DNA from: Candidatus Martarchaeota archaeon
GTDB taxonomy: Archaea > Micrarchaeota > Micrarchaeia > Micrarchaeales > CABMGC01
Length of the DNA stretch: 33,167 bases
Direction of reading: 5' to 3'
Assembly (NCBI GenBank): GCA_023379055.1
Contig: JAMCSX010000025.1
Span: 1 to 33,167 of the forward strand
Part shown: positions 1 through 31,527 of the stretch, in pieces
Numbering within the stretch: the first letter of the stretch is position 1
Layout of the letters: each line of letters starts with the position of its first letter
Translations under genes and position numbers: made by a program
Notes under the pieces: generated by a model
What the model was told of the DNA's origin: nothing
The model's input: only the letters and a program-made list of their open reading frames with translations
Databases searched by the model: none

Positions 1-332
1 TGTTTCTTTCCCTGCTTCTTCTCATTTACTCTTCTTAAGAAGTTCTGATATGCCTTTATAAGCCTGTATTCTATCTCGCATCTTGTCTGCGAGTATAGTT
101 TCAGGTATTTTTTGTCTTCTTGAATTATTTCCTTGACAAACCTGTTGAACTGTGCCATCGAGACTTTTGTCTTTCCGTTCTGGTAGGATGCAACTGACTT
201 CTCAAGAATCTTGTTGTAGAACTGTTGTGCAAGGATCAGCCGTTCATCTATTTCTTTCTGCCTTGTGGCATCAGGATAGATCCTGAATTTATAGGCTCTT
301 GTCAGTTCCATGACCTTTATATCGTTATCCAT
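1..332 (-). CDS. tnpB: TnpB family RNA-guided nuclease/transposon protein, N-terminal part (runs off left edge)
   Basis: The reverse complement begins with an ATG at 332 and encodes the same N-terminus as the complete copy at 11048, including the typical start YKFRIYP followed by a helical region. About 110 codons are visible before the window ends, so the RuvC-like catalytic residues and zinc ribbon are not in view and integrity cannot be judged. Identity with the copies at 11048 and 32845 is very high at the nucleotide level with scattered substitutions, indicating recent spread of one family. It is not in the supplied ORF track because it is open at the edge. TnpB proteins of IS200/IS605-type elements are RNA-guided DNA nucleases that help retain the transposon. 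Confidence 0.9.
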   Translation of the reverse strand, partial: MDNDIKVMELTRAYKFRIYPDATRQKEIDERLILAQQFYNKILEKSVASYQNGKTKVSMAQFNRFVKEIIQEDKKYLKLYSQTRCEIEYRLIKAYQNFLRRVNEKKQGKK

Positions 333-2128: not shown

Positions 2129-4801
2129 CTAGGCGCTAATCTTTGCACGCTTTCTGTCATCTTTCCTTTCATGCAGGAACTTGTACCACAGATCGTCGCT
2201 TAGTCCAAGCCCCTTCCTAAGCCGTGGGCTGAAGACATGGCTGAGTACCTCCCCTTCTCTCGCATTGATCTCAGTATACAGGTATCCAGTCTGGCCGTTA
2301 TTCCGGGCAACTGCAGATCCCAGTGTCTTCACATAAGTATCCGTGGAAGTCTCCGCCATTGTCGGCGCCTGCACAGCCTCGAAGTCATTTGTCACCACAT
2401 CCCTAACAACGTGGCCATGCCCTGTCCATATGAACTTTGATGAGCCCCTCTTGTTTTCAAAATGGCTGACTACTGTCGACTCCTTGCTTGAAAGTCCGTG
2501 TCTTATCTCGACTGGTATGTCCCTAATTACAAAAGTCTCTGCACCTATGTCCTGTCCAGACGCCTTCTTAACATAGTCATATTTATGCTCTTTCCAGTCC
2601 TCGGGCAGCCCAAGCTTCTCGCGTGCTCCGTCAAGCATTGCATATATCTGCCCTGCGACCGCTGACGCCTCGTCCCTGGTTATATCCCTAGTGGACTTGT
2701 TATCATGATTCCCTGAGGACACAACAACATACCCTCCTCTCTTTACCACATCGAATATCAGCTCCCTGAGCGGCTCTACGAATACTTCGGGCTGTGCATC
2801 GGTGTTGTGTATCACAGAGTTCCTCAGCTTCTCGTATCTCTCTATCATAAGTTCTGTTCTCTTTTCTGCTGTCACCCCATTCTTTTTCAGCCAGTAATCG
2901 TACTCGCGCATTATGTTCGGATCGTTCTCTACTCTTGGGGCATCCATGTGCTTCTGAAGGTTCCCCTCAATATTGTCGCCATTTAGTATAAGCACGTCCG
3001 GCTTGAGCTTAAGGGCATCCTCTGCAGCTGCCTTGAGCAGCCTCAGATCGCCAAAATTGCCTATATGTACATCTGAAAACTCAACCACGTGTATGTTCTC
3101 CGCAGCATCCGGTGCGGTTCTGCCAGCGTTAGGAACCAGCGACCTAAGAAGTTGCTCGTCTGCATATTCAAGTTCAGCATCTGTTATCTCAGATGGCCTC
3201 TTGCCCCTAATCAATGCCCTCTGCAGTTCAGGGTCGCGGCTTATGTCGCCAGATTTAATCACTGTACCAAGCTTCTTCACCAGCAGCTCAATTACTTCCG
3301 CCTCCTCCCTGTCCGATAGCAGCCTGTGCTCCTCCAGCAATGCAGGCTTTAAGGTCTCATGCACCAGGTTTCCAGACCCTTCTATTCTTATCATGCTTAC
3401 GCTTGTATCAATGAGCCCCCGCTCTGGCAGCCTTGTCTCATCAGTCCTTGTCCTGTTCAGGTACTGTCTTGTGGCCTCTGCAGCTGACAGGAAAGGTCCC
3501 TTTGCAAGTGTAGCAATTACTGTATCCGTCTGATCCTTCCATGGATCTATGGCAAACGACGTGAATGTTGATTTTCCCCCAACCAGCACGTTCAGAGCTG
3601 CAGAATCAATCTTACGCTTCTGCTCTCTTCCGAGGCTCTCGACCACGTTAAATGTCCTTTTCAGGAGAGTTGTATTGCCGCTTCTCTCGTACATTCCTGA
3701 CCCAAGTCTTAATCCGTCAGTAACAACCAGATTCGAAGCGCAGTGCACAGAAGACGAACTTATCTCATATACTGCAAGCTTCTCTGTTTGTATTGTCACA
3801 TTCATAGACCTTCCAATAGCGTCCTTAACCAGTGACAGGTACTCTGATCTTGCAAGCTCTGAAAGTACGTCGTTTATGTCTTTTGGCAGCGGTATATGGC
3901 CTATAAACCTGAAGTTGCCCCCGAACCTCTGCATCATTTGCTGCGCAGTCTCCCCATCAACAGTCTCTTTCAGCCTCTTTGAAAGTGCATGCCTCCTGTT
4001 TCCAAGGATCTTTACCTCCTTCTCAAGGGCTTCATATTCTGTTGATCCTGTTGCAACGAGTTCAGGCGTGAGCCTGGCGTTCGCATCGTCAATTTTAACC
4101 TTTACCTCATCAAGCATCTGTTTTATCTTTTCCTTCGGTATTTTGGAGAATGCATGCTGCTCAAGTATGTTGAAAAGCTCAATACGGTAGTTCTCCTCTG
4201 CCTTCTGCTCCTTTCTCAGCTTCAGGTTCTTCTTCTGCTTCGAGAGCTCATCATTAAGCCCAACGAGCGCGTCTTGATTCGATGCGCCTTCAATCCTCCT
4301 CTTCAGGTCGGATACCGCAAGTCCAAGATTCTCTATCTCGTGGCTCCTGAGGTCTACCTGTGCCATGGCCTCGTCCCTGTATTCCTCTATCGCCTCATGA
4401 GGCGTTCTGCCCGCAAGTGCCCTAGAGTACTTCTGCTTTATGTCTATTATGTTCCTCAGGTCTGACCATCCAAACACATATATCAATTGTGAATCTTCAG
4501 GAAGAGATGATTTAATCCTCTCTATACTGGGCCTGACCACTTGTGCGGCAGCCTCAAGATTCTTTATTCCATCAACTATTACGGAGAGCTTGTCATGGTT
4601 GAGTGGCCCTCCCCTATTAAGCGGCATGTCTGGAAGAAGACCTCCGTTTACAACAAGCACGTCCGGCTTCTCATTGTCAGGAAGCCCCTTCAGGTAGTGG
4701 GCAAGGCCTATCAGTCCATCTTCATATGCATACTTCTTTGCGCAGTTTATCTCCGAGATTACAAGTACGTTGTACGAATCCTTAGAGACATTTGCCACCA
4801 T
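2129..4801 (-). CDS. Large protein with two metallophosphoesterase-like domains, the first degenerate, and a central coiled coil
   Basis: 890 residues. The ATG at 4801 is preceded by a strong Shine-Dalgarno (GGGAGGG) and a TATA box at 4838-4847. The C-terminal third (about 571-890) has the full calcineurin-like metallophosphoesterase motif set in order: SDVHIG, NGDNIEG, SSGNHD, a histidine in IRHGLSS and TGHGHVV. These residues normally bind two metal ions for phosphodiester or phosphomonoester hydrolysis. The N-terminal region (about 10-120) has the same pattern of strands but with changed metal ligands: SEIN for SDxH, NGG for NGD and GWSD for GNHD. A later VLVGGKS may be a degenerate GHxH. 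Residues of about 150-290 are rich in K/E/L and look coiled-coil. This arrangement is not one I know by name. Nuclease or nucleotide phosphatase activity is plausible but unproven. It is transcribed divergently from the ABC-associated gene at 4980. Confidence 0.75.
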   Translation of the reverse strand: MVANVSKDSYNVLVISEINCAKKYAYEDGLIGLAHYLKGLPDNEKPDVLVVNGGLLPDMPLNRGGPLNHDKLSVIVDGIKNLEAAAQVVRPSIERIKSSLPEDSQLIYVFGWSDLRNIIDIKQKYSRALAGRTPHEAIEEYRDEAMAQVDLRSHEIENLGLAVSDLKRRIEGASNQDALVGLNDELSKQKKNLKLRKEQKAEENYRIELFNILEQHAFSKIPKEKIKQMLDEVKVKIDDANARLTPELVATGSTEYEALEKEVKILGNRRHALSKRLKETVDGETAQQMMQRFGGNFRFIGHIPLPKDINDVLSELARSEYLSLVKDAIGRSMNVTIQTEKLAVYEISSSSVHCASNLVVTDGLRLGSGMYERSGNTTLLKRTFNVVESLGREQKRKIDSAALNVLVGGKSTFTSFAIDPWKDQTDTVIATLAKGPFLSAAEATRQYLNRTRTDETRLPERGLIDTSVSMIRIEGSGNLVHETLKPALLEEHRLLSDREEAEVIELLVKKLGTVIKSGDISRDPELQRALIRGKRPSEITDAELEYADEQLLRSLVPNAGRTAPDAAENIHVVEFSDVHIGNFGDLRLLKAAAEDALKLKPDVLILNGDNIEGNLQKHMDAPRVENDPNIMREYDYWLKKNGVTAEKRTELMIERYEKLRNSVIHNTDAQPEVFVEPLRELIFDVVKRGGYVVVSSGNHDNKSTRDITRDEASAVAGQIYAMLDGAREKLGLPEDWKEHKYDYVKKASGQDIGAETFVIRDIPVEIRHGLSSKESTVVSHFENKRGSSKFIWTGHGHVVRDVVTNDFEAVQAPTMAETSTDTYVKTLGSAVARNNGQTGYLYTEINAREGEVLSHVFSPRLRKGLGLSDDLWYKFLHERKDDRKRAKISA

Positions 4802-8360: not shown

Positions 8361-9374
8361 ATGCAAAGAAAAACAAAGAAAATCGATAATAGGACAGCTG
8401 CAAAACGCGGGCCAGTAACGTCGAAGAAAGTTCGTGCTTCTCACAAGAAAACGCGCGCAACAAAGCCAAAAGTTGCCGTGCACATCAATGCACCTGACAT
8501 CGAAGACTTTCTAATCGGCATGGCCATGGAGCACGGCACCAATCAGGGCAATGGCGCAGACGTGGAAAACCTTCTGTACAGCGTGACTGGAGGCATGTCG
8601 GATCTTGGTTACCGATTTGGGTTTTCGATAGGAAAGGCGATCGCCCTAAAGTCAGAAGGTAAAAAATCCTTCGACGAGCTGTTTGGTATTATTGGACTCG
8701 GTGACTCACTATACCACCCGTTCAGGGATAAGGTGATAATAACATCAAGGCCGTCTATCCTCCCTGTATTTCAGCTGAAAAGGAACATTCACATATACGA
8801 GGCAGGGATAATATCAGGTTCCCTGTCTCAGAAGGCAAACATAGTTGTCAATACAATAGAGAAACAGTGTATATACAACGGATCCGAATCCTGCCAATTT
8901 GTTTCGAAGCCAATGTCTGGCAGGCAGCAGCCTGCCTGGATAGGGGTTGATGCGGCAGCAGATGCGATAGCGCACGCAATAGCCTTCAGGCATTTCTCAA
9001 GGCATGACGGCGAGTACATGCGCGCACTTGCATACCTTCCTCTTATCGAAGGCAATATGGGCAAGCATGTGTTAAAGATAATGATAATGTCAGGGAAAAA
9101 ACTTGGGGGCATGTCCGGATATCAGGACACTGCCCGTATAGTATCCTCTATAGCTAACTATTTCGGAGCTGCTGACCATCATGTTGAAAAAAGCGGCAGG
9201 AAAACGCTTATAAGATTGCAATACGAGAGCTATAACTCTATGCAGGGCTTTATCTCGCTTGGTGCCGCACTAATGACGGGCTTTTTGGAGTCGATAGGCA
9301 TGTCCGCAAGTGTAAGCTTCATAACGAACAGGGATAAAAGCTATACTACCATAATAGAGGCAAGGAGAGCGTAA
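8361..9374 (+). CDS. V4R-like (predicted small-hydrophobic-molecule binding) domain protein upstream of secY
   Basis: 337 residues, ATG preceded by GGTGA. The first 40 residues are very basic and probably disordered. Around residues 140-180 is a block typical of the V4R/heme-NO-binding-like fold: HIYEAGIISGSLS, then an NIVVNTIEKQC strand, then NGSESCQFV. In V4R proteins this pattern of glycine, glutamate and two cysteines contributes to a ligand or metal site. The second half (190-337) has alternating helices and a closing strand pair and may be a further divergent domain. There is no membrane segment. The TAA stop is directly followed by the secY ATG, so the two are almost certainly co-transcribed and translationally coupled. 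The function is not known. Confidence 0.65.
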   Translation: MQRKTKKIDNRTAAKRGPVTSKKVRASHKKTRATKPKVAVHINAPDIEDFLIGMAMEHGTNQGNGADVENLLYSVTGGMSDLGYRFGFSIGKAIALKSEGKKSFDELFGIIGLGDSLYHPFRDKVIITSRPSILPVFQLKRNIHIYEAGIISGSLSQKANIVVNTIEKQCIYNGSESCQFVSKPMSGRQQPAWIGVDAAADAIAHAIAFRHFSRHDGEYMRALAYLPLIEGNMGKHVLKIMIMSGKKLGGMSGYQDTARIVSSIANYFGAADHHVEKSGRKTLIRLQYESYNSMQGFISLGAALMTGFLESIGMSASVSFITNRDKSYTTIIEARRA

Positions 9375-11047: not shown

Positions 11048-12289
11048 ATGGATAACGATATAAAGGTCATGGAACTGGCAAGAGCCTATAAATTCAGAAT
11101 CTATCCTGATGCCACAAGGCAGGCAGAGATAGACGAAAGGCTGATCCTTGCACAACAGTTCTACAACAAGATTCTTGAGAAGTCAGTTGCATCCTACCAG
11201 AACGGAAAGACAAAGGTCTCGATGGCTCAGTTCAACAGGTTTGTCAAGGAGATAATCCAAGAAGACAAGAAATACCTGAAATTGTATTCGCAGACAAGAT
11301 GCGAGATAGAATACAGGCTCCTAAAGGCATACCAAAAATTCTTCAGGAGAGTCATGGAAGGAAGCAAGAAGGCAGGATTTCCAAGATTCAGGTCAAGAGA
11401 CAGGTACAAGTCAATAACATACCCGCAGGACAACGGTTCTTTCTCAATAAGGAGGGATAGACTACGGGTATCAAGGATAGGCACAATGCGAATCGAACTT
11501 CACAGAAAGATAGAAGGCATAATAAAGACGCTTGCGATAAAGAGGGAAGGAGGAAATTATTATGCGGTCTTCACCACAATAAATGACATCAAAGTTCCAG
11601 AAGTGAAGGACACAAATCCCGTAGGGATAGATGTGGGACTGAACTCGTTCGTTGCAATGTCGGACGGGACAAAGATAGAGAAGCCGAAGTTCGTGAAGAA
11701 GTCCGAAAAACATATTGCAAGATGGCAAAGGATTGTCGCAAGGAGGAAGAAAGGCTCAAATAGGAGGGAAATGGAAAAAGAAATGCTGTCAAAGAAATGG
11801 GAACACACAACGAACCAGTCCGACGATTTTGCACATAAGCTATCGGGCAAACTGGTAAATTCAGGATACACCTCATTTGCTGTGGAAGACCTGCATATCC
11901 AAAACATGGTAAAAAACCATCGTCTTGCGCAATCAATCCATAACGCTTCATGGAACAGGTTCATAAACATGCTTTCGTACAAGGCTGAAAGTGCTGGTAT
12001 GAAGGTAATAAGGGTGGATGCAAGAAACACCTCGAAGACATGCAGCGACTGCGGCAACATTCGGGATGTGCTGCTGTCGGAAAGGACATACACCTGCAAC
12101 AGATGTGGTATGCAGTTGGACAGGGACATAAACGCATCAATAAACATACTCAAAAGAGCTACCCTCGGACAGAGGGGAAGTCACGCTCAGGGAGATATGG
12201 CCTCTGCGATTCAACAGGAATCGAAAAGCCGCATCGAAGAACTGAGAACCGATAAAACACATCCTTTGCGGGATGCAGTGATTGCATGA
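11048..12289 (+). CDS. tnpB: TnpB RNA-guided nuclease, apparently intact
   Basis: 413 residues with a full catalytic set: RuvC-I aspartate D195 in NPVGIDVGLNS, RuvC-II glutamate E280 in SFAVEDLHI, and RuvC-III aspartate D360 in QLDRDINASINIL. The zinc ribbon C332xxC335...C350xxC353 lies between RuvC-II and RuvC-III. The N-terminus has the helical RNA/DNA-binding region with YKFRIYP. The length is normal for the family, with no frameshift, so this is the master copy among those visible. Known TnpB proteins cut DNA beside a short target-adjacent motif that equals the sequence left of the element's left end; by that rule the motif here would be TTWAC-like. The copies at 332 (-) and 32845 (+) are near-identical over the parts seen. 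Confidence 0.95.
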   Translation: MDNDIKVMELARAYKFRIYPDATRQAEIDERLILAQQFYNKILEKSVASYQNGKTKVSMAQFNRFVKEIIQEDKKYLKLYSQTRCEIEYRLLKAYQKFFRRVMEGSKKAGFPRFRSRDRYKSITYPQDNGSFSIRRDRLRVSRIGTMRIELHRKIEGIIKTLAIKREGGNYYAVFTTINDIKVPEVKDTNPVGIDVGLNSFVAMSDGTKIEKPKFVKKSEKHIARWQRIVARRKKGSNRREMEKEMLSKKWEHTTNQSDDFAHKLSGKLVNSGYTSFAVEDLHIQNMVKNHRLAQSIHNASWNRFINMLSYKAESAGMKVIRVDARNTSKTCSDCGNIRDVLLSERTYTCNRCGMQLDRDINASINILKRATLGQRGSHAQGDMASAIQQESKSRIEELRTDKTHPLRDAVIA

Positions 12290-17185: not shown

Positions 17186-17880
17186 AACCAAGAGCTTTCC
17201 CCCGACTTCGTCGGGGTGCAACAGTCTAGTCCTGCAACAAACAAAAGTCTTCACTTCTAGATTCCTCTGACGGCGAGTGGGCGCGGATTCTACGCACCCG
17301 GATTTTTCGCCGCCGAAGTGTCAATATGGTTAGCGTAGCGTATGCAAAGAATAAAAAGGAATTGGCTTGGGTATACAATTTTCAACACGTTGTGTTGGTA
17401 TCAAAATGTCGATTCAAGGTCTTCAAGAACCCGAAGACGCAAAGAGTTGTGATGGATGCGTTCCGAGAGGTAGAAATGCAATTCAATATACGCATAAAGG
17501 AACTTTCCTTCGGAGACGACTACGCCCACGTTCACATGGAAGTGAATGTGCCAAGAAACCTTTCAATGCAGCAAGTGGAACAGATCCTGAAATCACATTC
17601 AGCGTCAAAAGTCTTCAAAGAAATGCCGAACTTCATAAAGAGATATCCGAGAGGGAGTTTCTGGGGAGGCCAACCATCAGGAACCCGTGTTGGGTCTGTC
17701 GGAGAGAACATAATAAAGAATTACATCCGCCGACAGGATGTCTCATACGAACCATTCCTGCCAGACAGGGATGAAGGGAAACAAATGAAACTGTGGTTCA
17801 ACTGAAACTATAATCGTCGGGCGAGATACCGCTAGCTTGCTGCGGAGCGAGCCCGACGTGCTTGGGGTTCAAAAGGGGCG
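17186..17880 (+). mobile_element. IS200-type insertion sequence (tnpA only)
   Basis: A single Y1 transposase gene is flanked by subterminal hairpins. The left one is CCCCGAC-TTC-GTCGGGG (17200-17216, perfect 7-bp stem). The right one is CGTCGGGC...GCCCGACG (17815-17822 with 17851-17858) enclosing an inner CCGC/GCGG. The 110 bp between the left hairpin and tnpA is non-coding, as usual for IS200, where a leader structure represses the transposase. The outer boundaries are estimates, because IS200 elements lack terminal repeats and make no target duplication. Confidence 0.8.
17326..17805 (+). CDS. tnpA: IS200-family Y1 (HUH) transposase TnpA
   Basis: 159 residues, the usual length. It has the HUH motif H68-V-H70 in DDYAHVHMEVNV and the single catalytic tyrosine Y133 in ENIIKNYIRRQ. 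The N-terminal strand YNFQHVVLVSKCRF is typical of the family. It cuts and rejoins single-stranded DNA at the element ends. All active-site residues are present, so it may be active and could also act in trans on the tnpB-only elements nearby, although their end hairpins are different. Confidence 0.95.
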   Translation: MVSVAYAKNKKELAWVYNFQHVVLVSKCRFKVFKNPKTQRVVMDAFREVEMQFNIRIKELSFGDDYAHVHMEVNVPRNLSMQQVEQILKSHSASKVFKEMPNFIKRYPRGSFWGGQPSGTRVGSVGENIIKNYIRRQDVSYEPFLPDRDEGKQMKLWFN

Positions 17881-19292: not shown

Positions 19293-21710
19293 ATGGATAG
19301 AAAGGAGTTAGACGGAGTTATAGTCGATATCGACTATATAACGCTGGACGGTAACAGCACCATACGAATTACTATCAAGTCTGCAGGAAGAATAGTCTCC
19401 TTGTTTGATCCAGATTTTCATCCATATTTCTATCTAGTCCCTTTCAGCAAGGATCTCGATCCTGAGTCAATAAAGAACATGGACATACGCTCTGGCGTTG
19501 AAAAAATAAACATACTCTCAATAGAAAAAGAGAACCTTAGCATATTAAGCGCAGATATGGTTGCACTTAAAATAACAACCTCGAGCACACGCTCAATACC
19601 GGAGCTAAGCGAGAGGTTAGGGGAGTTCGGGGACAGATACGAATACGATATACTTTTCTGGAAGAGATATCTGATAGACAATCGGGTCTCACCGCTTTCC
19701 GGCGTGCATGTAGTGTACCACGAAGGAAAAGAAGGGAGGCTGATAATAGACGAGATCAAAAAGTCTGAGGCCGATCAGGCGCAAGGCCTTACCCACATAT
19801 CATTCGACATAGAAACTTACAATCCCACCATTGCTCCGCGGCCAGAGAAGGATCCGTGCATAATGATAAGCTACTCTACCGAAGGGAAAGAAGGGGTGCT
19901 AACCACAAAGAAAGTGGATAGGGATTTTGTAACGCTCTGCAAGGACGAAAAGGAGATGATATCCGGATTCATAAATCTGATAAAGGAGGTAGATCCAGAT
20001 ATAATAGACGGCTACAATTCATCAAACTTCGACATACCCTACCTGATGAAAAGGGCCAAGAAGCTTGGCCTGCCGTTCGACATAACGCGGTACGGCGAAG
20101 AGCCGCGTGAAGAGAACCATGGCCTTCTGAAGGCGATAAAGATACCTGGCAGGATAAATCTGGATGTGTATAATGTAACCAAATTCATATCAATAGTCGG
20201 TGCATCAGAGGCACTGCTCAAGATAAACCACTTCACTCTCGGCGATGTGTATGGCGCAATAACCGGGGACGTTAAGAGGACGGTGGTGAAGAAAAACATA
20301 TGGCAGATGTGGGACGGAAGCAGGGAAGACCTAGAGAACCTTGCCGACTATTCACTAAGTGATTCGCGTGCCCTGAGCGCTCTGTACAGGTTTTTCCTTC
20401 CACTGGAGATAGAGGTTGCCAAAGTATCCGGAACAACACTCGGAGAGGCGGCAGTCTCAACAACCGGCCAGCTTGTAGAATTCTTCTTAATGAGATATGC
20501 CTCGATAAACGGCGAGATGATACCAAACAAGCCTGAAGATGCAGAGATACGGGCAAGGCTGTCAAATCCCATAGAGGGCGCATATGTCAAGACTCCGGAG
20601 GCAGGAATATACAACAATATAACGGTTTTCGATTTCAGGGGGCTGTATCCCTCCATAATAATAGCTAACAACATAGACAACTCCACAATATGCAAGGAAT
20701 GCAGTGATTTTTACGAATCGCCAATAGGTACAAGGTTCAAAAAGAGCCCGCAGGGAATAATCCCAAAGGCGCTTGAACTCCTTATAGCCGAAAGGTCAGA
20801 CGTGAAGAAAAGATACAAAAAGGATCCAGACAACAAATCGCTTGCTGCAAGGTCCCAGGCGCTCAAAATAATAGCTAACTCATTTTACGGTTATCTTGGG
20901 TATGCAAGGTCAAGGTGGTATTCAAGGGATTGCGCAGCAAGCGTGACAGCATTCGGAAGGGAGACAATAACAAATACCATAAAGGACGCAGAAACTAACG
21001 GTTTCAAGGTCATATACTCCGATACCGATAGCATATTCCTCTTAATGCAGAAAAGGACAAAGGAGGAAGCCCAGGCATTCATGGCTTCGGTAAACAAGAA
21101 ACTGCCCGGCGCAATGGAGCTTGAACTTGAGGATTTCTACACGCGAGGGGTATTCGTAGGCAAGAAAGGAAAGTCAGAATCAGGGGCAAAGAAAAAGTAC
21201 GCATTGCTCTCAGAATCCGGACGCATAAAGATAAAGGGATTTGAGCTTGTAAGGAGGGACTGGTCAAATGTTGCAAGGGAGACGCAGAAGAAGGTACTGG
21301 AGGCAATACTAAAAGAGGGAAGCAAGGAGAAGGCGCTTGACATAGTCAAGGACACGGTTAAGATGCTTAAGGAAGGCAGGGCCGAGTTAAAGGACCTTGT
21401 CATATACACGCAGCTGAGGAAGGCCATAGACAAGTATGACAACACCTCCCCAGAGCTTGAGGCAGCCAAGAAGGCAATAGCAGAAAATGTGAAAAGGAAG
21501 GACGAGCTGGAGGGCGCAACAATAGGGTATATAATAACAAGGGAAGGAAACTCAATATCAGAGAAGGCAGAGATAGAGGAAACTGCAAAGTCATACGATC
21601 CTGACTACTACATAAACCACCAGGTTCTGCCTGCAACCATGAAGATACTAAAGGAGCTCGGGTTCAGCGAAGAGGAATTGAAAGGGCAGGGATCACAGAG
21701 GAGATTGTGA
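19293..21710 (+). CDS. polB: Family-B DNA polymerase with 3'-5' exonuclease
   Basis: 805 residues in one piece. Exonuclease motifs: Exo I FDIET (D172, E174), Exo II YNSSNFDIPYL (D247), Exo III YSLSDSRAL (Y353, D357). Polymerase motif A is DFRGLYPSII (D447), motif B KIIANSFYGYLGY (K525-Y537) and motif C YSDTDSIF (D577, D579). All catalytic acidic residues are present, so it should be a proofreading replicative polymerase. The thumb region extends to the C-terminus with charged helices. No split into two genes is seen, unlike in some nanoarchaea. Its TGA overlaps the start of the aminopeptidase gene (TGATG), so translation is coupled. Confidence 0.97.
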   Translation: MDRKELDGVIVDIDYITLDGNSTIRITIKSAGRIVSLFDPDFHPYFYLVPFSKDLDPESIKNMDIRSGVEKINILSIEKENLSILSADMVALKITTSSTRSIPELSERLGEFGDRYEYDILFWKRYLIDNRVSPLSGVHVVYHEGKEGRLIIDEIKKSEADQAQGLTHISFDIETYNPTIAPRPEKDPCIMISYSTEGKEGVLTTKKVDRDFVTLCKDEKEMISGFINLIKEVDPDIIDGYNSSNFDIPYLMKRAKKLGLPFDITRYGEEPREENHGLLKAIKIPGRINLDVYNVTKFISIVGASEALLKINHFTLGDVYGAITGDVKRTVVKKNIWQMWDGSREDLENLADYSLSDSRALSALYRFFLPLEIEVAKVSGTTLGEAAVSTTGQLVEFFLMRYASINGEMIPNKPEDAEIRARLSNPIEGAYVKTPEAGIYNNITVFDFRGLYPSIIIANNIDNSTICKECSDFYESPIGTRFKKSPQGIIPKALELLIAERSDVKKRYKKDPDNKSLAARSQALKIIANSFYGYLGYARSRWYSRDCAASVTAFGRETITNTIKDAETNGFKVIYSDTDSIFLLMQKRTKEEAQAFMASVNKKLPGAMELELEDFYTRGVFVGKKGKSESGAKKKYALLSESGRIKIKGFELVRRDWSNVARETQKKVLEAILKEGSKEKALDIVKDTVKMLKEGRAELKDLVIYTQLRKAIDKYDNTSPELEAAKKAIAENVKRKDELEGATIGYIITREGNSISEKAEIEETAKSYDPDYYINHQVLPATMKILKELGFSEEELKGQGSQRRL

Positions 21711-22767: not shown

Positions 22768-23835
22768 TCATTCCTTCTTCGCGTCCTTTGGCTTTATCTT
22801 CGCAAGGTCCTCCTTCTTTATGGCGAGCTTCACAGACCCGGTGCCTATCGGTATCTGCTTGCCTACAAGTATGTTTTCAGTGACTCCCTTCATCGGGTCG
22901 ACCTCACCGTATGCTGCTGCGTGTATCAGGTGCTTCAGCGTCTCTTCGTATGCAGCCCTTGCGAAGACAGACTTCTTCTCCCCGCTGAGTCCGTGCCTTC
23001 CGACTCCCTTTATCGTGCCGCTTGCAGTCATTGCGTCGGCTATGAGGAAAAGGTGCCTGTCCTCTACTGAGATCTTCTGCTCCTTAAGCGTTCTCTTGAG
23101 CTCGTTTCCAAGCGCATTCCTTGCCGCTTCTATTCCGAACAGCCGGTATATTGCAAATACGTCGTTGGTTGTGGTTCTCTCCTTGTCAACTCCATCTACT
23201 GCCATTACTCCCTCTATATTGCTTCCACCAGACACTAGGTAGAATTCGCCTGTCCTGTCATCCTTTCTTATCGTCGCCTTTCCTGCGCCGTCAACACCGC
23301 TTACCAGCGCCTTCATTATCTTTATGGATGCTGCGCGTATGTCTTTCAGGTTCTTTGTATGCATGTTTATTATTATGCCTCCTTCCTCAACCGTTGCGTC
23401 TACCTTTCCAAGCTCCTTCTCTATCCTTGATGCCACCTGCCGTGCCGTCAGGTTCTCCGACTGAAGCTCCTGTACGTCAAGTATGACCTTTATCTTGCCT
23501 TTTGAGAAATTCTCCAACACCCTTTTTGCGATGTTCGACATCCTGACCTCATTCACCTTCTTCAGGACCTCCTGAGCCCTGTCGAAGCTCTTGCCTATCC
23601 TCTCATCAAGATAAATATATGTTATTGGAGTGGATGGCTTCTTCTTGGCATCTACAAGCTCTATTATCCTTGGAAGTCCAGACGTCGATATTGTGGACTC
23701 TATTCCTGCGAGATGGAATGACCTGAGGATCATCTGTGTTCCAGGCTCCCCTACCGACTGCGCGGCAATTATGCCAACCGGTTCCCCGTATTCCACAGCG
23801 TATTTTTTATCTACCTTGTCCCTTGCCATAAACAT
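22768..23835 (-). CDS. rpoA2: DNA-directed RNA polymerase subunit A''
   Basis: About 355 residues. It begins with the trigger-loop-proximal block [20 protein letters not shown] and RSFHLAG, followed by [19 protein letters not shown]. Its C-terminus has [15 protein letters not shown] and [20 protein letters not shown], as in archaeal A''. I place the start at the ATG at 23835, overlapping the rpoA1 stop by one base (TGATG); the ORF track uses a TTG one codon upstream. It is the last gene of the polymerase operon; the rpl30e, nusA and rps genes that often follow in archaea are not here, and map converges instead. The 149-bp gap to map holds no gene. Confidence 0.97.
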
Positions 23836-26408
23836 CAACTCTCTTTGTCCATCTTCTCAAACTGGGTGTATACCGGATTGATGATGTCCCCCCCGTAAAC
23901 AGTCTCTATCATGTTATTGTTCGTATCCCTGACACTGTAGTCATCGGTAACGTAGAAATCCTGGAGCGCATTCGACAGCCTTCTGTAGAGATATCCCGAC
24001 CTTGCTGTAAGCAGTGCTTTGTACACCTCCGAGCTTCTTGAGCCTACTGCGTGCATGAACAGGTCCTTAGGCGCAAGCCCGGAATAATAGCATGTTGCAA
24101 CGAATCCCCTTGCCCCGGGAGCGATGTCCCCTGGCACTATGTGTGGAAGCACCCTGTTCGTATAGTATCCCCTCTTTATCCTTCCTCCGCTGAGCGTTGC
24201 CTGCTGCCCGAGGAACATGGTCATCTGCTCTATGTTTAACGTGCTTCCCCTTGAACCTGACCTGGTCATCTCCACTGCCGCATTCTCCTCTGTCTCGTAT
24301 TTAAGCAGAGTCTCTCCTGCCTTGTCCCTGACTATGTTAAGCTCGGCTATTATCATCCTCTCAAGCGACTGCCTGAGCGTGTAGCCTATGAGCGGTTCAA
24401 GCTTCCTGTTCCTGTAGTCGTCTATGAGCTTGTTTATCTTCCTGAACGTATCCTCAAGTATCTTCACTCTCTCTTCCTCGAGCCTCTTGCTTGTTGTGTA
24501 CTCCCTTACCCCTACTGTAACTCCCATAAGCGTAACGAATGCATCCGCAACCTTTGCGGTTGTGAATATGAACCTCTTCAGCTCCTCGTATCCGAAGTCC
24601 TTCCCGATCTTTACCATAAGCCTGTTGTTTCCCCTCCCATATGTGTCCTTTGTCACCACCCCTTCGACAAGCCTGCCCTTCCTTATTACAAAAGGGGCCT
24701 TACCTGACACTCCATCAAAGTCAAGATCCTTTGGCAGCAGCATTGAGAATACATCCCTGCCCTTGTAAAGGTCTCCCTTAGAGGCCTTTGGCAGCTCGTA
24801 AATGCCTGCTATCGAGAGCAAGTATACCGCCTGCTCCTTTGTAAGATATGAATCGTCCTTTGTAAGCAAGTACATTCCGGTTATCCCGTCTTCGTTGTTA
24901 GATATGATGACGTCGCCGTCCCTTGGCGAAAAGATCTGAAACTGCGGGCTCATAAGGTTCCTTGCCTCTGACTGCGACTCAAGGCTCTGCGGCACATGAA
25001 GGTTCATCTCGTCTCCGTCGAAGTCTGCATTGTACGGCGCAGTCACGCAGTAGTTCATTCTGAATGTCTTCCCCACAAGCACCTTTGCCTTGTGCGACAT
25101 TATCGATACCCTGTGGAGCGAAGGCTGCCTGTTGAACAGGGTTATGTCGCCGTCCATTAGCTGCCTCTCAAGTATATCGCCTACCTGCAGCCCCTTCAGG
25201 AGCTCCTCCCTGTTAGTATCTATGACCCTCTTCCTCTTTCCATCCTTTGATATGACGTTTATTACCATCGGGTACTCAGTGCGTGCAAGCAGCTCCTTTG
25301 CCTTTTCAAGATTCCACAGGGTCACATAGAAAGGAACAGTGAGCTTTGAGGCTATGTCAATTGGCACTCCCACTTCATCAAGATCTATATTCGGGTCAAC
25401 GCTTATCACAGTCCTGGCAGAGTAATTGACCCTCTTTCCGCTAAGGTTGTATCTGAACCTGCCTTCCTTTCCCTTAAGCCTCTGTGCAAGCGTCTTGAGC
25501 GCCCTTCCGCTCCTGTGCCTTGCTGGAGGTATGCTTGCTGTCTCGTTGTTGAAATATGTTGTTACGTGATACTGCAGAAGCTCCCAAAGGTCGTCTATTA
25601 TGATCTGTGGAGCGCCAGCATTCAGATTCTGGTCCAGCCTCAGATTTATCCTCATTATGTCCACGAGCTTGTGCGTAAGGTCGTCTTCGCTCCTCTCACC
25701 ACTCTCCAGCGTGATTGATGGCCTTACATTTACCGGCGGTACGAGGAGCACGCTCAGTATAACCCACTCCGGCCTGCTCACTGCGCCGTCTATTCCAAGC
25801 ACCGCAAGGTCTTCGTTGCTTATCTTTGAGAGAAGGTCGCGTATCTCATCAGGCTTCAGTTTGTAATCATCAACATAGAAGTATGTAGGCGCGGAGAACT
25901 TGAACTTTCCTTTTGAGGCCTTGCACCTCTCGCACTTCTTCATGTTCTTCAGTCGCTTGAGCATCGCTGCGGATCCCGAAAATCCCTTCTCAGATTCCGC
26001 CCCCTGTGGCTCCAGATCCCCTTCAACGCTCTCCTCAAGCTTTGGAAGCACACTCCTGTACTCTGCTATATGCTCATCGCTCAGCATGAGCCTGTGGCAC
26101 ACCCTGCACGTTGACTGGAGTATCATGTATATTATCTTTGAGAACTCTGAATGGATTACTGGCCTGACAAGCTCTATCCTGCCGAAGTGGCCCGGGCACG
26201 ACTTTGCCCGTGCGCCACACGTTTTGCATATAAGGCCAGGGTCTATTACCCCCATCCTCTGGTCCAGAAGTCCGCCGTCTATCGGATAGCCGTCTTCATT
26301 GTATGTGTCAGGCACCGTAAGCTTGACAACGCTAAGCCTCTTTGCGTCGTCCGATCTCAGAATCCCGAATTTTATGTGATCTATTACCTCTGTTTGCATG
26401 ATGATCAT
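23835..26408 (-). CDS. rpoA1: DNA-directed RNA polymerase subunit A'
   Basis: 857 residues. The N-terminal zinc clamp has C61xxC64...C71xxH74 ([20 protein letters not shown]). Further cysteine pairs lie at 101-104 and 159-162. The active-site loop [10 protein letters not shown] is at 460-469 with the three magnesium-binding aspartates. RQPSLHR lies at about 427-433, and the bridge helix region follows with [26 protein letters not shown]. The split from A'' is at the usual archaeal position. The ATG overlaps the rpoB1 stop (ATGA). It forms the catalytic half of the enzyme together with A''. Confidence 0.98.
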
Positions 26409-28228
26409 TCATTCAGTTTTATTGTAGGCATTATGTGCAGCGACCTTATCTCGTCAAGCAGCACCTTGAATGCATAGCTTATCTCTACCGGAACAAAGCT
26501 GTTCTCCTTGCATACTGTGCATACCTGCACCTTCTTTATGTGATCATAATATCCAAGATTGCCGCAGTTCTTGCATATCAGCACCTCTGTCTTGTCGCTT
26601 TGGTCAAGCAGCCTCTCCTTAAGCAGCAGGCTAGCGCCGTAGCCTATAAGTGCATCTCGTTCCATCTCTCCAAACCTGAGCGCCCCCTGCCTGGCTTTTC
26701 CTTCAGTAGGCTGGTGTGTGAGTATCTGCACCTTGCCCCTGCTCCTTACCTGTATCTTGTTGCTTACCATATGGTAAAGTCTGTTGTAATATACAACTCC
26801 ATTGAACAGCACCGACTTGAATGGCATGCCTGTTATCCCGTCATAGAGCACCTCGTTTCCATAAGCCTCAAATCCATGCCTTTTAAGTGTCTCCCCGTAT
26901 GCAGTTATCCTGTCAGTCCCGGCCTCGCTGAATGCAGTTCCGTCTATAATGTTTCCGTCAACAGCGCCTGCCTTTCCAGCAAGCATCTCAAGCAGATGCC
27001 CGAATGTGAGCCTTGTGGGTATGCTGTGAGGGTTAAGAAGAAGGTCAGGTACAATTCCGTCTGAAGTGAACGGCATGTCCTCAGGAGGGACTATGAGGGC
27101 AACCACACCCTTCTGTCCGTGCCTGCTTGCAAACTTGTCTCCATTTTCAGGTATCTTATTCGATCTTATCCTTACCTTCACTATCTTCGTTGCCCCTGTG
27201 GACTCGGTAAATATCACGCTGTCAACTACTCCCTTCTCCCCAGTTTTCAGCACTACGGAATCATCGCGCATCTTTTCCTCAAGTCCTCCGGCACCAAGGT
27301 TCTCCTCAAGGAACCTTGGTGGCGCAACCTTTCCTATAAGCGCATCCCCTTCCGCAACCTCCATCTCCGGCTCTATTATGCCGTCTTCGCTGAGCTTTGA
27401 ATAAACGTGCTCCCCCATGTATCCATCCGCTGTCGGCTGCGGTAACCTGAACTTATCCTTCTGTCCACCAGGATATCTTCTCTCCTCATCCACATAAGTC
27501 TTATAGAACATGCTCCTTCCAAGTCCGCGGTCTACCGCAGCCCTGTTCAGCACTATCGCGTCAGACATGTTGTACCCATAATAGGTGGATAGCGCAACTA
27601 CAAAGTTCTGCCCACTAGGATGCGTAGATATCCTTGCAGTGTCATAAGCCGAAGTGGTTACTATCGGCTTCTGCGGATAGTAAAGTATGTAAGCCCTTGA
27701 ATCGAACCTCTGATTGAAGTTAGTTGCATATACTCCCTGCGCCTGCTTCGTAAAGTTTGCAAGCATCGCGTGCCTTGCAAGCGAGTTGTGCTCAGGGTAA
27801 GGTGCGGTGTTTATGGTAAATCCGAAGATCGACGTTATGTCTACCTCAAGGTGGGTGTGCCTCTCAGTTATATCCCTCTCGCTGAGTGCAACGAGGACAT
27901 TCTCCTCCTCCTCTGCGTCAAGATACTCTATTATCCCGTTCCTTAACAGGTAGTTGAAGTTTATCTCCTTGCTTTTTAGTTTTGCGAGAATCTCCTTTGT
28001 CAGCTTCGTCTGACCGTTTTCGAGTATTATGTAGGGTTTCCTTATTCTACCCCTGTCAGTATTTATGTTAACTGAATTGAGCTTCTCATTGAACGATACG
28101 TTCACTTCTCCGGATATTATGCCCCTCCGCCTTGCGCTGCGTATCTCCCCGGCAAATTGTGCCGGATTCCCTACTGTCCCTATTACCTTGCCATTTACAT
28201 ATACATATGATTTATTCTCATCTGCCAT
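26405..28228 (-). CDS. rpoB1: DNA-directed RNA polymerase subunit B' (C-terminal half of B)
   Basis: About 607 residues from the ATG at 28228. AGGTG overlapping the rpoB2 stop sits 5 nt before it, better than the GTG start of the ORF track (28234). Conserved blocks include ESTGATKIVKVRIRSNKIPE, GDKFASRHGQKGVV and GRVQ-like KVQILTHQPTEGKARQGALRFGEMERDAL. The C-terminal zinc ribbon is CKNCG...CTVC. The B subunit is split into B'' and B', as in many euryarchaea and several DPANN lineages. Confidence 0.97.
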   Translation of the reverse strand: MADENKSYVYVNGKVIGTVGNPAQFAGEIRSARRRGIISGEVNVSFNEKLNSVNINTDRGRIRKPYIILENGQTKLTKEILAKLKSKEINFNYLLRNGIIEYLDAEEEENVLVALSERDITERHTHLEVDITSIFGFTINTAPYPEHNSLARHAMLANFTKQAQGVYATNFNQRFDSRAYILYYPQKPIVTTSAYDTARISTHPSGQNFVVALSTYYGYNMSDAIVLNRAAVDRGLGRSMFYKTYVDEERRYPGGQKDKFRLPQPTADGYMGEHVYSKLSEDGIIEPEMEVAEGDALIGKVAPPRFLEENLGAGGLEEKMRDDSVVLKTGEKGVVDSVIFTESTGATKIVKVRIRSNKIPENGDKFASRHGQKGVVALIVPPEDMPFTSDGIVPDLLLNPHSIPTRLTFGHLLEMLAGKAGAVDGNIIDGTAFSEAGTDRITAYGETLKRHGFEAYGNEVLYDGITGMPFKSVLFNGVVYYNRLYHMVSNKIQVRSRGKVQILTHQPTEGKARQGALRFGEMERDALIGYGASLLLKERLLDQSDKTEVLICKNCGNLGYYDHIKKVQVCTVCKENSFVPVEISYAFKVLLDEIRSLHIMPTIKLNE

Positions 28229-28236
28229 AAGCACAC

Positions 28237-29706
28237 CTATAACTTCTCTATCTTCCTTATCTCCCTTATCTTCTGCTCCGTAGATGCCTCATCTGCACCC
28301 ACAGTTATCTTTGACATTATAGCCAGATACTTGGTCAGCCCTACCTCCTGCCCTTCCGGAGTCTCCGAAGGGCAGATCTTTCCCCACTGCGTTCCATGTA
28401 CGTCCCTTGCCTTGAAGTGCGGATGCTTCTTTGCCAGCGGAGACTTCACCCTTCTTAAGTGTGTATAAGTGCTTATGAGATTTGTCCTGTCAAGGACCTG
28501 CGACACTCCAGTCTGCCCTGCCACCCATGTGCCGGTCCCCATTGCATACGCTATCCTGTCTGATATCGTGTCAGGATTGATTATGGACTGTATGCTAAGC
28601 TTCCTCCCCCTTGCACTTGTTCTCTCTACCTGGTACTTAACCTCCTTAGTAAAGAACCTGAATGCATATGCAAAGAGCTCTTCCATAAGCTCCCCAGAGT
28701 ATTTCACCCTCTTGTTTCCATAATGGTCCTTGTCATCCTCCCGTGTTATCCCGTTTCCAACTATTGTTGACTTCCTTGCCATCTGTATCAGGTATTTGCC
28801 CTTCTCATACCTGTCCTCCGGCTTCTCTCCTATGTGTGGAAGAAGATAGTTATCTATCTGGGTCTCTGCCCTCTTCTGCTGATATTCCTTTGCCTGCCCT
28901 GGCGCAGAGAGCTTCCCAAGCTCTATTAACGCATCGCTGCCTGATATGTCCTTGAATCCCGTGAGTTCGAAGTTTAGCATCATGTCGTTCTTGAATGTCA
29001 GAAGGTCGGCATAATCAAGCATATCTTCCTGTTTCATTCCAAGCGCCTTCAGGAGCAGTATGAAGCTAAGGCTTTTGGGTACCGTTGGGAAATCCACAGT
29101 AAACGTGCCGCTCTGTGCCCTTGTAACCACGCATCGTGCCCTGAATCCTGGTGCAGTGGAGAATACCACGCTTGAGACCTTATCTCCTGTCTTCTTCTTT
29201 GTTGTTATTATCCTGTTTGCAGCTACATCCTCAAGTCCTACAAGCACCCTCTCAACGCCCTTCATTATGAAGTAGCCGCCCGGATCCTCTACGTCCTCCC
29301 CATTCTCCACCATCTGCTCTTTTGTAAGCGTCTTTATGTAGCACAGATTGCTGCGCAACATTATGGGCAATTCTCCTACAAACACCTCACCAAACGATGC
29401 CGATTTCTCTATGCCCCTTATGACCGGAACAACCTCTATGAATATTGGTGCTGCATATGTCTGGTTCCTGAGCCTGGCCTCATTAGGCATTATCGCCCTT
29501 CTGGATCCATCAGCCTCAATAACCGACGCCTTCTCAAGCCTTATCTTCCCAAGCTTTAGTGCGAACCCCTCAACGCTCGGCTCTATTATATTCTGTCTGT
29601 CTATCACAGACTGTATGCCTGAGTCAAGGAATCTGTTATAGCTCTCTATCTGGTGCTGGACCAGGCTGTTTGATTCTAGATAAGACCTAAGTATCTCGTT
29701 TCCCAT
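28237..29706 (-). CDS. rpoB2: DNA-directed RNA polymerase subunit B'' (N-terminal half of B)
   Basis: 489 residues. It has the N-terminal protrusion and lobe sequences, including GYFIMKGVERVLVGLEDVAANR, DDKDHYGNKRVKYSGEL and, near the end, HGTQWGKICPSETPEGQEVGL. The natural split from B' follows. The ATG at 29706 has GAGGT six or seven bases upstream, overlapping the rpoH stop. It is followed by rpoB1 with an 8-nt gap to the ATG chosen there. Confidence 0.98.
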   Translation of the reverse strand: MGNEILRSYLESNSLVQHQIESYNRFLDSGIQSVIDRQNIIEPSVEGFALKLGKIRLEKASVIEADGSRRAIMPNEARLRNQTYAAPIFIEVVPVIRGIEKSASFGEVFVGELPIMLRSNLCYIKTLTKEQMVENGEDVEDPGGYFIMKGVERVLVGLEDVAANRIITTKKKTGDKVSSVVFSTAPGFRARCVVTRAQSGTFTVDFPTVPKSLSFILLLKALGMKQEDMLDYADLLTFKNDMMLNFELTGFKDISGSDALIELGKLSAPGQAKEYQQKRAETQIDNYLLPHIGEKPEDRYEKGKYLIQMARKSTIVGNGITREDDKDHYGNKRVKYSGELMEELFAYAFRFFTKEVKYQVERTSARGRKLSIQSIINPDTISDRIAYAMGTGTWVAGQTGVSQVLDRTNLISTYTHLRRVKSPLAKKHPHFKARDVHGTQWGKICPSETPEGQEVGLTKYLAIMSKITVGADEASTEQKIREIRKIEKL

Positions 29707-30306: not shown

Positions 30307-31527
30307 CTACCCCAGGCTAAAGCCTGTGGGCTTTCCATAAGCTGATGAAACATGTCGCACAGCAACAATCGGTTCAACAACCGCATCTGGACGGATGTGT
30401 CTGTTTACAGGGACTCGCCTATTGGAAATCTGGAAAGAATCATGGTTAGTGGTATCTCTCCGCTCCAACAGGGATTTTATGGCAATATTGAGGCTTGCCT
30501 TTCTATCGGAGTTCACGACAACCCCACACTTCTTGCACCTGAACAAGGCATAATTGCTACTGTCATGTCCCTTCCCAACAGCACCGCAGTTGGAGCAGAA
30601 CTTGGACGTATGCCATGCATCAACGATATTCAGCGCAATATTCTTGTCAAAGCACCTCTGCATGAGGTTCTGTTTGAAAGTAAGGAAAGGGATACGCATA
30701 ACTTCACGATTGAATCTCCTTCCCTTGGGACTGAATCGTCTGAGGTCTTCAATGGAAATGTCAGCATCGTATTGCAGAGCCATTTCAGTAATCTCTCTGA
30801 CAACTTCGCCTATTCGGTTCTTCACGAAGTTATGCTCATTTTGTTTAATCTCCTTCAATGCCCTATTTGCATATTCGCTTCCGGTATCGGCATAACTCTG
30901 CAAAACAGACTTCCTTTCAAACAACTTCTTCCTTTTCTGCCAAATGTCCTTTCCGAAGTAATCCTGATGCAGAACCTTACCTTCAGAAGAGATGACCGAA
31001 ACAGCGAAGCATTTACTGTTCACGTCAACTCCCAGAACGTTCTTCTTCAAAGGCAATTCAGTTTCTTCTTTGGAAAGATATGCGACAATCCCAAGTCTGG
31101 AGGTAAGTCCATACGTTTTGCATATCCACCCAGACTTCAAAAGGTCGGAATAGCGTTGGAAATTCCTGTTCTTCTTTATGGGAACTGCGATTCTGTTTCT
31201 TGGATAGATTCCCAGTTCAATAAAAGTCATGGCCATGTCAAAAGTCTTGCAGTTGCGAGGGACGTTGAACTTGACAGTAATTCCTTTGGATTTGACTTTG
31301 CTTCGCCATACTGCACGTTCCAAAGATGCATAAACCTGAACGTTGAATCCAGTCCTCTTTTTAGATTCGGCAAAAGTCTTTCTATGGAAGTCTATGAAAG
31401 TATTGCAGAAATCCCTGTCTTTCCAGAGTCTATTGAATTCAGAAGTCGCCTTCAAAGAAAAGTCCCTTGGAATTCTACCCTTCTTGGCAGTAATTCCATC
31501 AATCTGCAAGAGAATAGCACGTTTCAT
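30307..31527 (-). CDS. tnpB: TnpB family protein (second lineage)
   Basis: 406 residues, with little similarity to the 11048 family outside the motifs. RuvC-I D168 is in NVLGVDVNSKCFAV, RuvC-II E260 in DISIEDLRRF, and RuvC-III D341 in VVNSDRKASLNIAI. The zinc ribbon is C311xxC314...C331xxC334. The C-terminus ends GKPTGFSLG, as in many archaeal OrfB proteins whose last codons form the right-end hairpin. All catalytic residues are present, so it may be an active RNA-guided nuclease. The ATG at 31527 is preceded by GGTTAGTGGT. The plus-strand ORF of 424 aa over the same region is a shadow. Confidence 0.93.
   Translation of the reverse strand: MKRAILLQIDGITAKKGRIPRDFSLKATSEFNRLWKDRDFCNTFIDFHRKTFAESKKRTGFNVQVYASLERAVWRSKVKSKGITVKFNVPRNCKTFDMAMTFIELGIYPRNRIAVPIKKNRNFQRYSDLLKSGWICKTYGLTSRLGIVAYLSKEETELPLKKNVLGVDVNSKCFAVSVISSEGKVLHQDYFGKDIWQKRKKLFERKSVLQSYADTGSEYANRALKEIKQNEHNFVKNRIGEVVREITEMALQYDADISIEDLRRFSPKGRRFNREVMRIPFLTFKQNLMQRCFDKNIALNIVDAWHTSKFCSNCGAVGKGHDSSNYALFRCKKCGVVVNSDRKASLNIAIKSLLERRDTTNHDSFQISNRRVPVNRHIRPDAVVEPIVAVRHVSSAYGKPTGFSLG

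Follow-up and report, generated by a model that had tools for sequence, protein, structure and literature searches.

A tandem calcineurin-like phosphoesterase of Micrarchaeota with a degenerate N-terminal copy split by a helical hairpin and an intact C-terminal copy

The gene described here belongs to a tiny, symbiotic archaeon and encodes an 890-residue protein with two phosphoesterase-like halves, one of them apparently dead. The window, i.e., the whole stretch of 33,167 nucleotides that was analysed, belongs to a genome of Candidatus Micrarchaeota (862 kb in 28 contigs, approximately 85% complete). The gene is a minus-strand open reading frame that runs from an ATG at 4801 to 2129, with an SD-like GGGAGGG at 4812-4806 and a TATA-like TTTATATA at 4847-4840 on its 5' side. 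Its product is confirmed as a tandem calcineurin-like metallophosphoesterase (MPE), in which a degenerate N-terminal copy, split by a helical hairpin, is followed by an intact C-terminal copy. This architecture is apparently without earlier description; a literature search for Micrarchaeota together with phosphoesterase returned no paper.

Elsewhere in the window, the translations indicate the RNA polymerase large subunits as four consecutive genes on the minus strand (22768-29706; B'' 28237-29706, B' 26405-28234, A' 23835-26408, and A'' 22768-23838), which adjoin genes for PolB (19293-21710) and methionine aminopeptidase. Two proteins that are TnpB/OrfB-like and carry CxxC zinc motifs (11048-12289, plus strand, and 30307-31527, minus strand), an incomplete TnpB/OrfB-related frame at the window edge (3-332, minus strand), and an IS200-like (TnpA) transposase gene (17326-17805, plus strand) were likewise recognized from translations only. 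A V4R-domain-like protein (8361-9374, plus strand) lies between SecY and an ABC permease and is conserved within the genus.

The features of the tandem MPE are listed in Table 1. The AlphaFold model of the whole protein has a pLDDT of 84.6 and a pTM of 0.82, and residue counts refer to an alignment of 38 homologues that includes the window protein. Full-length homologues in related genomes are 862-1095 aa long, and because 37 further proteins keep the architecture at 15-44% identity, it is not a product of chance. The initial annotation had placed a coiled coil of about 140 residues between the two halves. A helical, coiled-coil insert is indeed present, but that length was too short (about residues 131-306 were found), and the insert of approximately 175 residues lies within the N-terminal MPE, after its third core strand, with the second part of this domain following it. 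The predicted helices of the insert span residues 134-172, 176-219, 223-243, 246-251, 254-279, and 286-300; the coil is 167-236 aa long across all 38 homologues, and Lys264 within it is Lys in 35 of them and Arg in the other 3. In many homologues, from different genera, the last residues make up a short basic K-x-K-x tail, for example KVKA or KSKTR.

Table 1. Features of the tandem MPE gene in the window
Feature	Residues	Position in window	Strand	Basis
Whole gene, tandem MPE	890 aa	2129..4801	-	full-length homologues; stop codon 2129-2131
N-terminal degenerate MPE, first part	9-130	4412..4777	-	structure, profile alignment, column counts
Helical coiled-coil hairpin insert	131-306	3884..4411	-	structure prediction; coil in all 38 homologues
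N-terminal degenerate MPE, second part	307-512	3266..3883	-	structure, profile alignment, column counts
Linker, conserved K-R/L-P-S-E	513-562	3116..3265	-	PSE 536-538 near invariant
C-terminal catalytic-type MPE domain	563-889	2135..3115	-	PF00149 match, structure prediction
Motif I, SDVHIG	576-581	3059..3076	-	D577, H579 invariant, 38 sequences
Motif II, GDNIEG	608-613	2963..2980	-	GD 37/38, E612 33/38, G613 37/38
Motif III, GNHDN, catalytic His699	697-701	2699..2713	-	G, H invariant; N698 35/38, N701 36/38
Motif IV, His	768	2498..2500	-	invariant, 38 sequences
Motif V, GHGH	794-797	2411..2422	-	H797 invariant; H795 = H in 26, D in 12

The C-terminal half matches Pfam PF00149 at residues 571-700 (E = 1.4e-4; 22.8 bits, above the curated cut-off of 21.5), as do 15 of 19 relatives at E <= 1. 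Its predicted strands comprise residues 568-576, 603-607, 691-695, 744-747, 754-759, 762-769, 790-794, 799-803, 808-811, 839-848, and 851-861. The metal motifs that had been read in this half are real. All five (DxH, GD, GNH, H, and GHxH) are present, as D577-x-H579, G608-D609, G697-N698-H699, H768, and G794-H795-x-H797, and they are near-invariant across the 38 homologues. The pairs E612-G613 and D710-E711, together with Q670 and N701, are conserved as well. A protein in which both halves are non-catalytic and serve as a scaffold is very unlikely; the Asp at position 795 in 12 homologues and the losses of N698 or D609, which are confined to isolated relatives, would fit it, but D577, H579, H699, H768, and H797 are invariant in all 38 sequences (D609 in 37) over a very large divergence. 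The retention of the ligands at such low identity was counted in favour of a catalytic C half, which, to judge by its residues, very probably hydrolyses phosphodiesters by a dinuclear-metal mechanism.

Judged by sequence profiles and predicted fold, the C half appears most like DP1, the proofreading nuclease subunit of archaeal DNA polymerase D. When its profile was compared by hhalign with the other MPEs of the same genome, DP1 gave P = 1.5e-5, the third MPE P = 0.006, and Mre11 P = 0.008, a comparison that favours DP1 somewhat, as the DP1 profile was built from four sequences and the other two from one each. In a Foldseek search of the PDB with the whole model, DP1 ranked first (6t8h_A, E = 8e-5), with Mre11 and the cyclic-nucleotide phosphodiesterase Rv0805 close behind, the latter scoring almost equal to DP1; purple acid phosphatase and GpdQ were also among the leading fold matches. 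The best-recurring phage family was the PHROG family phrog_7339, "DNA repair exonuclease" (14 of the 38 members, best 1e-8), and in NCBIfam YaeI and LpxG were matched weakly. Seven metal ligands and a catalytic His have been described for Pyrococcus abyssi DP1 (PMC10721889, PMC4996933), the ligands being D360, H362, D404, N450, H497, H560, and H562 and the catalytic residue H451 (PMC10721889). The C half has the same D/H/D/N/H/H/H ligand set and catalytic His, and it further resembles DP1 in the GDxxD/E-G sequence, an invariant Gln between GD and GNH, and a Gln after GHxH.

These matches also bear on the nature of the substrate. The C half may be a phosphodiesterase or phosphatase of small molecules (a cyclic nucleotide, dinucleotide, nucleotide sugar, or lipid head group), with the N half sensing a related ligand and no nucleic acid involved. 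We regard this as a serious but doubtful alternative. Rv0805, purple acid phosphatase, GpdQ, YaeI, and LpxG all point towards it, and an anion or a nucleotide would be a suitable ligand for the Gly-rich loop and Lys/Arg residues of the N half, but the profile is nearest to the DP1 and phage exonuclease families, and the big helical insert after GD, Q670, and the M/L-Q near residues 815-816 are more DP1-like. Nucleic acid as the substrate of the C half is given an even chance or slightly better.

In the N-terminal half, the metal motifs have been lost, i.e., DxH is replaced by E/DxG or N, GD by GG or GE (GE in part of the second clade described below), and GNH by GxxD. In the window protein, SEIN (16-19), NGG (52-54), and GWSD (111-114) occupy these places, as the initial annotation had read them, and VLVGGKS (405-411), which it had offered as a counterpart of GHxH, agrees with the relatives: the position of the first His (residue 410) is His in 15 of 38, while the second His is never kept. 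The half also has a conserved set of its own, which consists of a Gly-rich (GGG) loop after strand 1, K90, R95, D114, N117, K264, and R331; the last five are invariant or near-invariant in the 38 homologues. The core strands of the first part are residues 9-16, 48-52, and 105-109, and those of the second part are 335-338, 342-347, 356-361, 403-408, 414-420, 428-433, 468-474, and 479-484. Modelled alone (pLDDT 84.4, pTM 0.82), the N half shows the same elements as in the whole protein, and in the predicted structures its strands and intervening helices correspond one to one in order with those of the C half.

The coil-free N core and the C core gave an hhalign score of 25.8, compared with 13.9 +/- 2.0 (maximum 19.6, n = 150) for column shuffles and 17.9 for a reversed-profile control. 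None of 68 neighbouring families reached 25.8 against the N core, and against the C core only DP1, the positive control, exceeded it (53.9). A low-threshold alignment sets the two halves against each other colinearly across 269 columns, with the regions of motifs I, II, IV, and V falling opposite one another. The local P of hhalign for this similarity is 0.01-0.02, and the probability is low in hhalign's terms; since its own P is modest, the case for homology of the halves draws jointly on the controls, the colinear register, and the structure. The N half thus probably shares an ancestor with the C half, and it is predicted, with support of moderate strength, to be an MPE fold without a metal site. 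The structure predictions of the whole protein and of the N half alone and the controlled profile comparison all agree with the degenerate MPE that had been proposed.

The conserved residues of the N half and the weakness of the direct sequence similarity between the halves could instead indicate an independent alpha/beta domain with a catalytic site of its own, in which the order of elements has converged on that of an MPE. This is decidedly unlikely. The one-to-one order of secondary structure, an N-C score beyond both the shuffled and natural-family nulls, the first GHxH His kept in some relatives, the GE that replaces GD in some members of the second clade, and the MPE structures among the Foldseek matches of the N half alone all stand against it. 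In that last search, the best PDB match (E = 2.7e-3) was aligned over the full length of chain B of the YydD-YydB model 9a6c; purple acid phosphatase and SbcD were also listed, and most of the others were helical or coiled-coil matches. Chain B (481 aa in an integrative model) is, we infer, Bacillus subtilis YydB. The likeness lies in this leading match over the whole length of YydB; YydB differs in having no tandem, and the target is itself a model matched at that E-value. No YydD-type ATPase (DUF2326, PF10088) exceeded the cut-off in the approximately 85% complete genome, and none was noticed beside the gene. The B-subunits of the eukaryotic polymerases alpha, delta, and epsilon are inactive; they have kept the MPE fold after loss of the metal site and have a structural role (PMC10721889). 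The N half resembles them in retaining the fold, whereas they pair with a polymerase subunit and the dead domain of the tandem MPE is fused to a live one.

The initial annotation had seen a general likeness to Mre11-type or DNA polymerase D small-subunit-type proteins. The likeness holds for the C half, which is closest to DP1, but the gene is separate from those of both DP1 and Mre11. The same genome contains DP1 beside DP2, a 409-aa Mre11, and a third small MPE of 244 aa, so the tandem MPE is none of these. It differs from DP1 in being fused to a dead MPE and a coiled coil and in not being paired with DP2; a Pfam search of the window protein and its relatives found no PF04042 or OB match, whereas both are found in the true DP1 proteins of two relatives. 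With Mre11/SbcD it shares the fold and the metal motifs, and Mre11 works with a coiled-coil partner, Rad50/SbcC; however, its profile match to Mre11 is weaker than that to DP1, and the coil of the tandem MPE is inside its own pseudo-MPE chain and not in an ATPase. Two Rad50/SMC-type ATPase genes are present in the window's genome, where the Mre11-type gene and a Cdc6/Orc1-like gene adjoin each other in the same orientation (locus L111, 907-3334). Mre11 was found in 157 of the 164 genomes of the order and in all 51 near-complete ones, of which 18 carry the tandem MPE; by this co-occurrence, a replacement of Mre11 by the tandem MPE is rejected.

More broadly, the gene could be a lineage-specific duplicate or replacement of DP1 or Mre11 that has taken over its job. 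The DP1-like C half and the position of the gene beside DP1-DP2 in one genome (G031) would agree with this, but the intact DP1 next to DP2 and the Mre11 in the same genome, the universal Mre11 of the near-complete genomes, and the lack of an OB domain and a PF04042 match make it scarcely credible. In G031 (locus L054, 2715-10604), the tandem MPE gene is convergent to the DP2-DP1 genes, an adjacency that is absent from the other loci examined.

Four family libraries (Pfam, NCBIfam, PHROG, and PADLOC) were scanned, and none has a model that spans the full architecture or the N half, which bears out the view that no named family describes it. The PADLOC defence models gave scattered weak matches, none common to more than 4 of the 38 members, and searching the PDB with a profile of the family alignment yielded coiled-coil chance matches only. 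The parts are known folds, and the order pseudo-MPE(coil)-MPE is new among the named families searched. Neither a non-MPE fold for the N-terminal region nor a named family with this architecture has emerged, the two findings that would have spoken against the initial annotation.

The survey of related genomes that it had suggested recovered the same architecture in 46 of the 164 genomes of the order and in two more carriers elsewhere in the class. The cultured Candidatus Mancarchaeum acidiphilum Mia14 (genome G042) is a putative carrier. The survey beyond the phylum comprised the genome_contigs, viral contig, phage, and plasmid searches; the window protein as a query found no homologue in any of them, and a homologue search with a congener's protein returned four Micrarchaeota records. 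In a tree of the tandem MPE, two deep clades are seen, and the two members from outside the order pair together. Both of the order's families are represented in each clade, so an old duplication or transfer probably lies behind them. One genome (G022; loci L061 and L062) has two divergent copies, one of 854-931 aa depending on the choice of start and the other of 999 aa.

In three congeners (G003, G009, and G010), the flanking genes are kept in order, adjacent or nearly so, and the tandem MPE has been lost cleanly from an otherwise intact locus. The protein is 32-45% identical to its full-length counterparts in congeners, where Mre11 is 58-66% identical. Given this patchy occurrence, the clean losses, and an identity lower than that of Mre11, the tandem MPE is an accessory trait of Micrarchaeota and evolves much faster than Mre11. 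No conserved operon partner was found across genera in the 39 loci compared. Genera from each of the order's two families have the gene near SecY/DUF929 genes, and this recurrence suggests that the neighbourhood is its ancestral location.

We somewhat favour a function as an accessory phosphodiesterase, probably a nuclease, of the DP1/Mre11 kind with a built-in pseudoenzyme. In the C domain, two metals held by D577, H579, D609, N698, H768, H795, and H797 would activate a water molecule, H699 would act as the proton donor, and nucleic acid or another phosphodiester would be cut. The N domain, having lost its metal ligands, would serve in cis as a clamp or sensor with no catalysis of its own, which binds a substrate, ligand, or partner protein and gates entry to the C-terminal site; the chances for and against such a cis role are about balanced. 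A narrower version, which we consider unlikely, is that the N half is a ligand-sensing pseudo-phosphoesterase, in which a nucleotide or phosphate end would sit where the metals once did and would switch on the DP1-like nuclease via the coil. The Gly-rich loop, K90, R95, K264, and R331, together with D114/N117, would then be the candidate binding set. If this version were true, a complete regulated nuclease would be contained in one chain, perhaps as part of a conflict system, and Micrarchaeota would be the one group in which it has so far been seen.

Phosphoesterases in the active and the inactive state are known, both as separate subunits and in separate lineages, as in PolD DP1 and the eukaryotic polymerase B-subunits. 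With both states in one chain, and with the coil inside the dead copy, the tandem MPE makes the role of a pseudoenzyme directly testable in one protein, and it provides a testable biochemical hypothesis for a family of large proteins, so far without a name, from ultrasmall symbiotic archaea.
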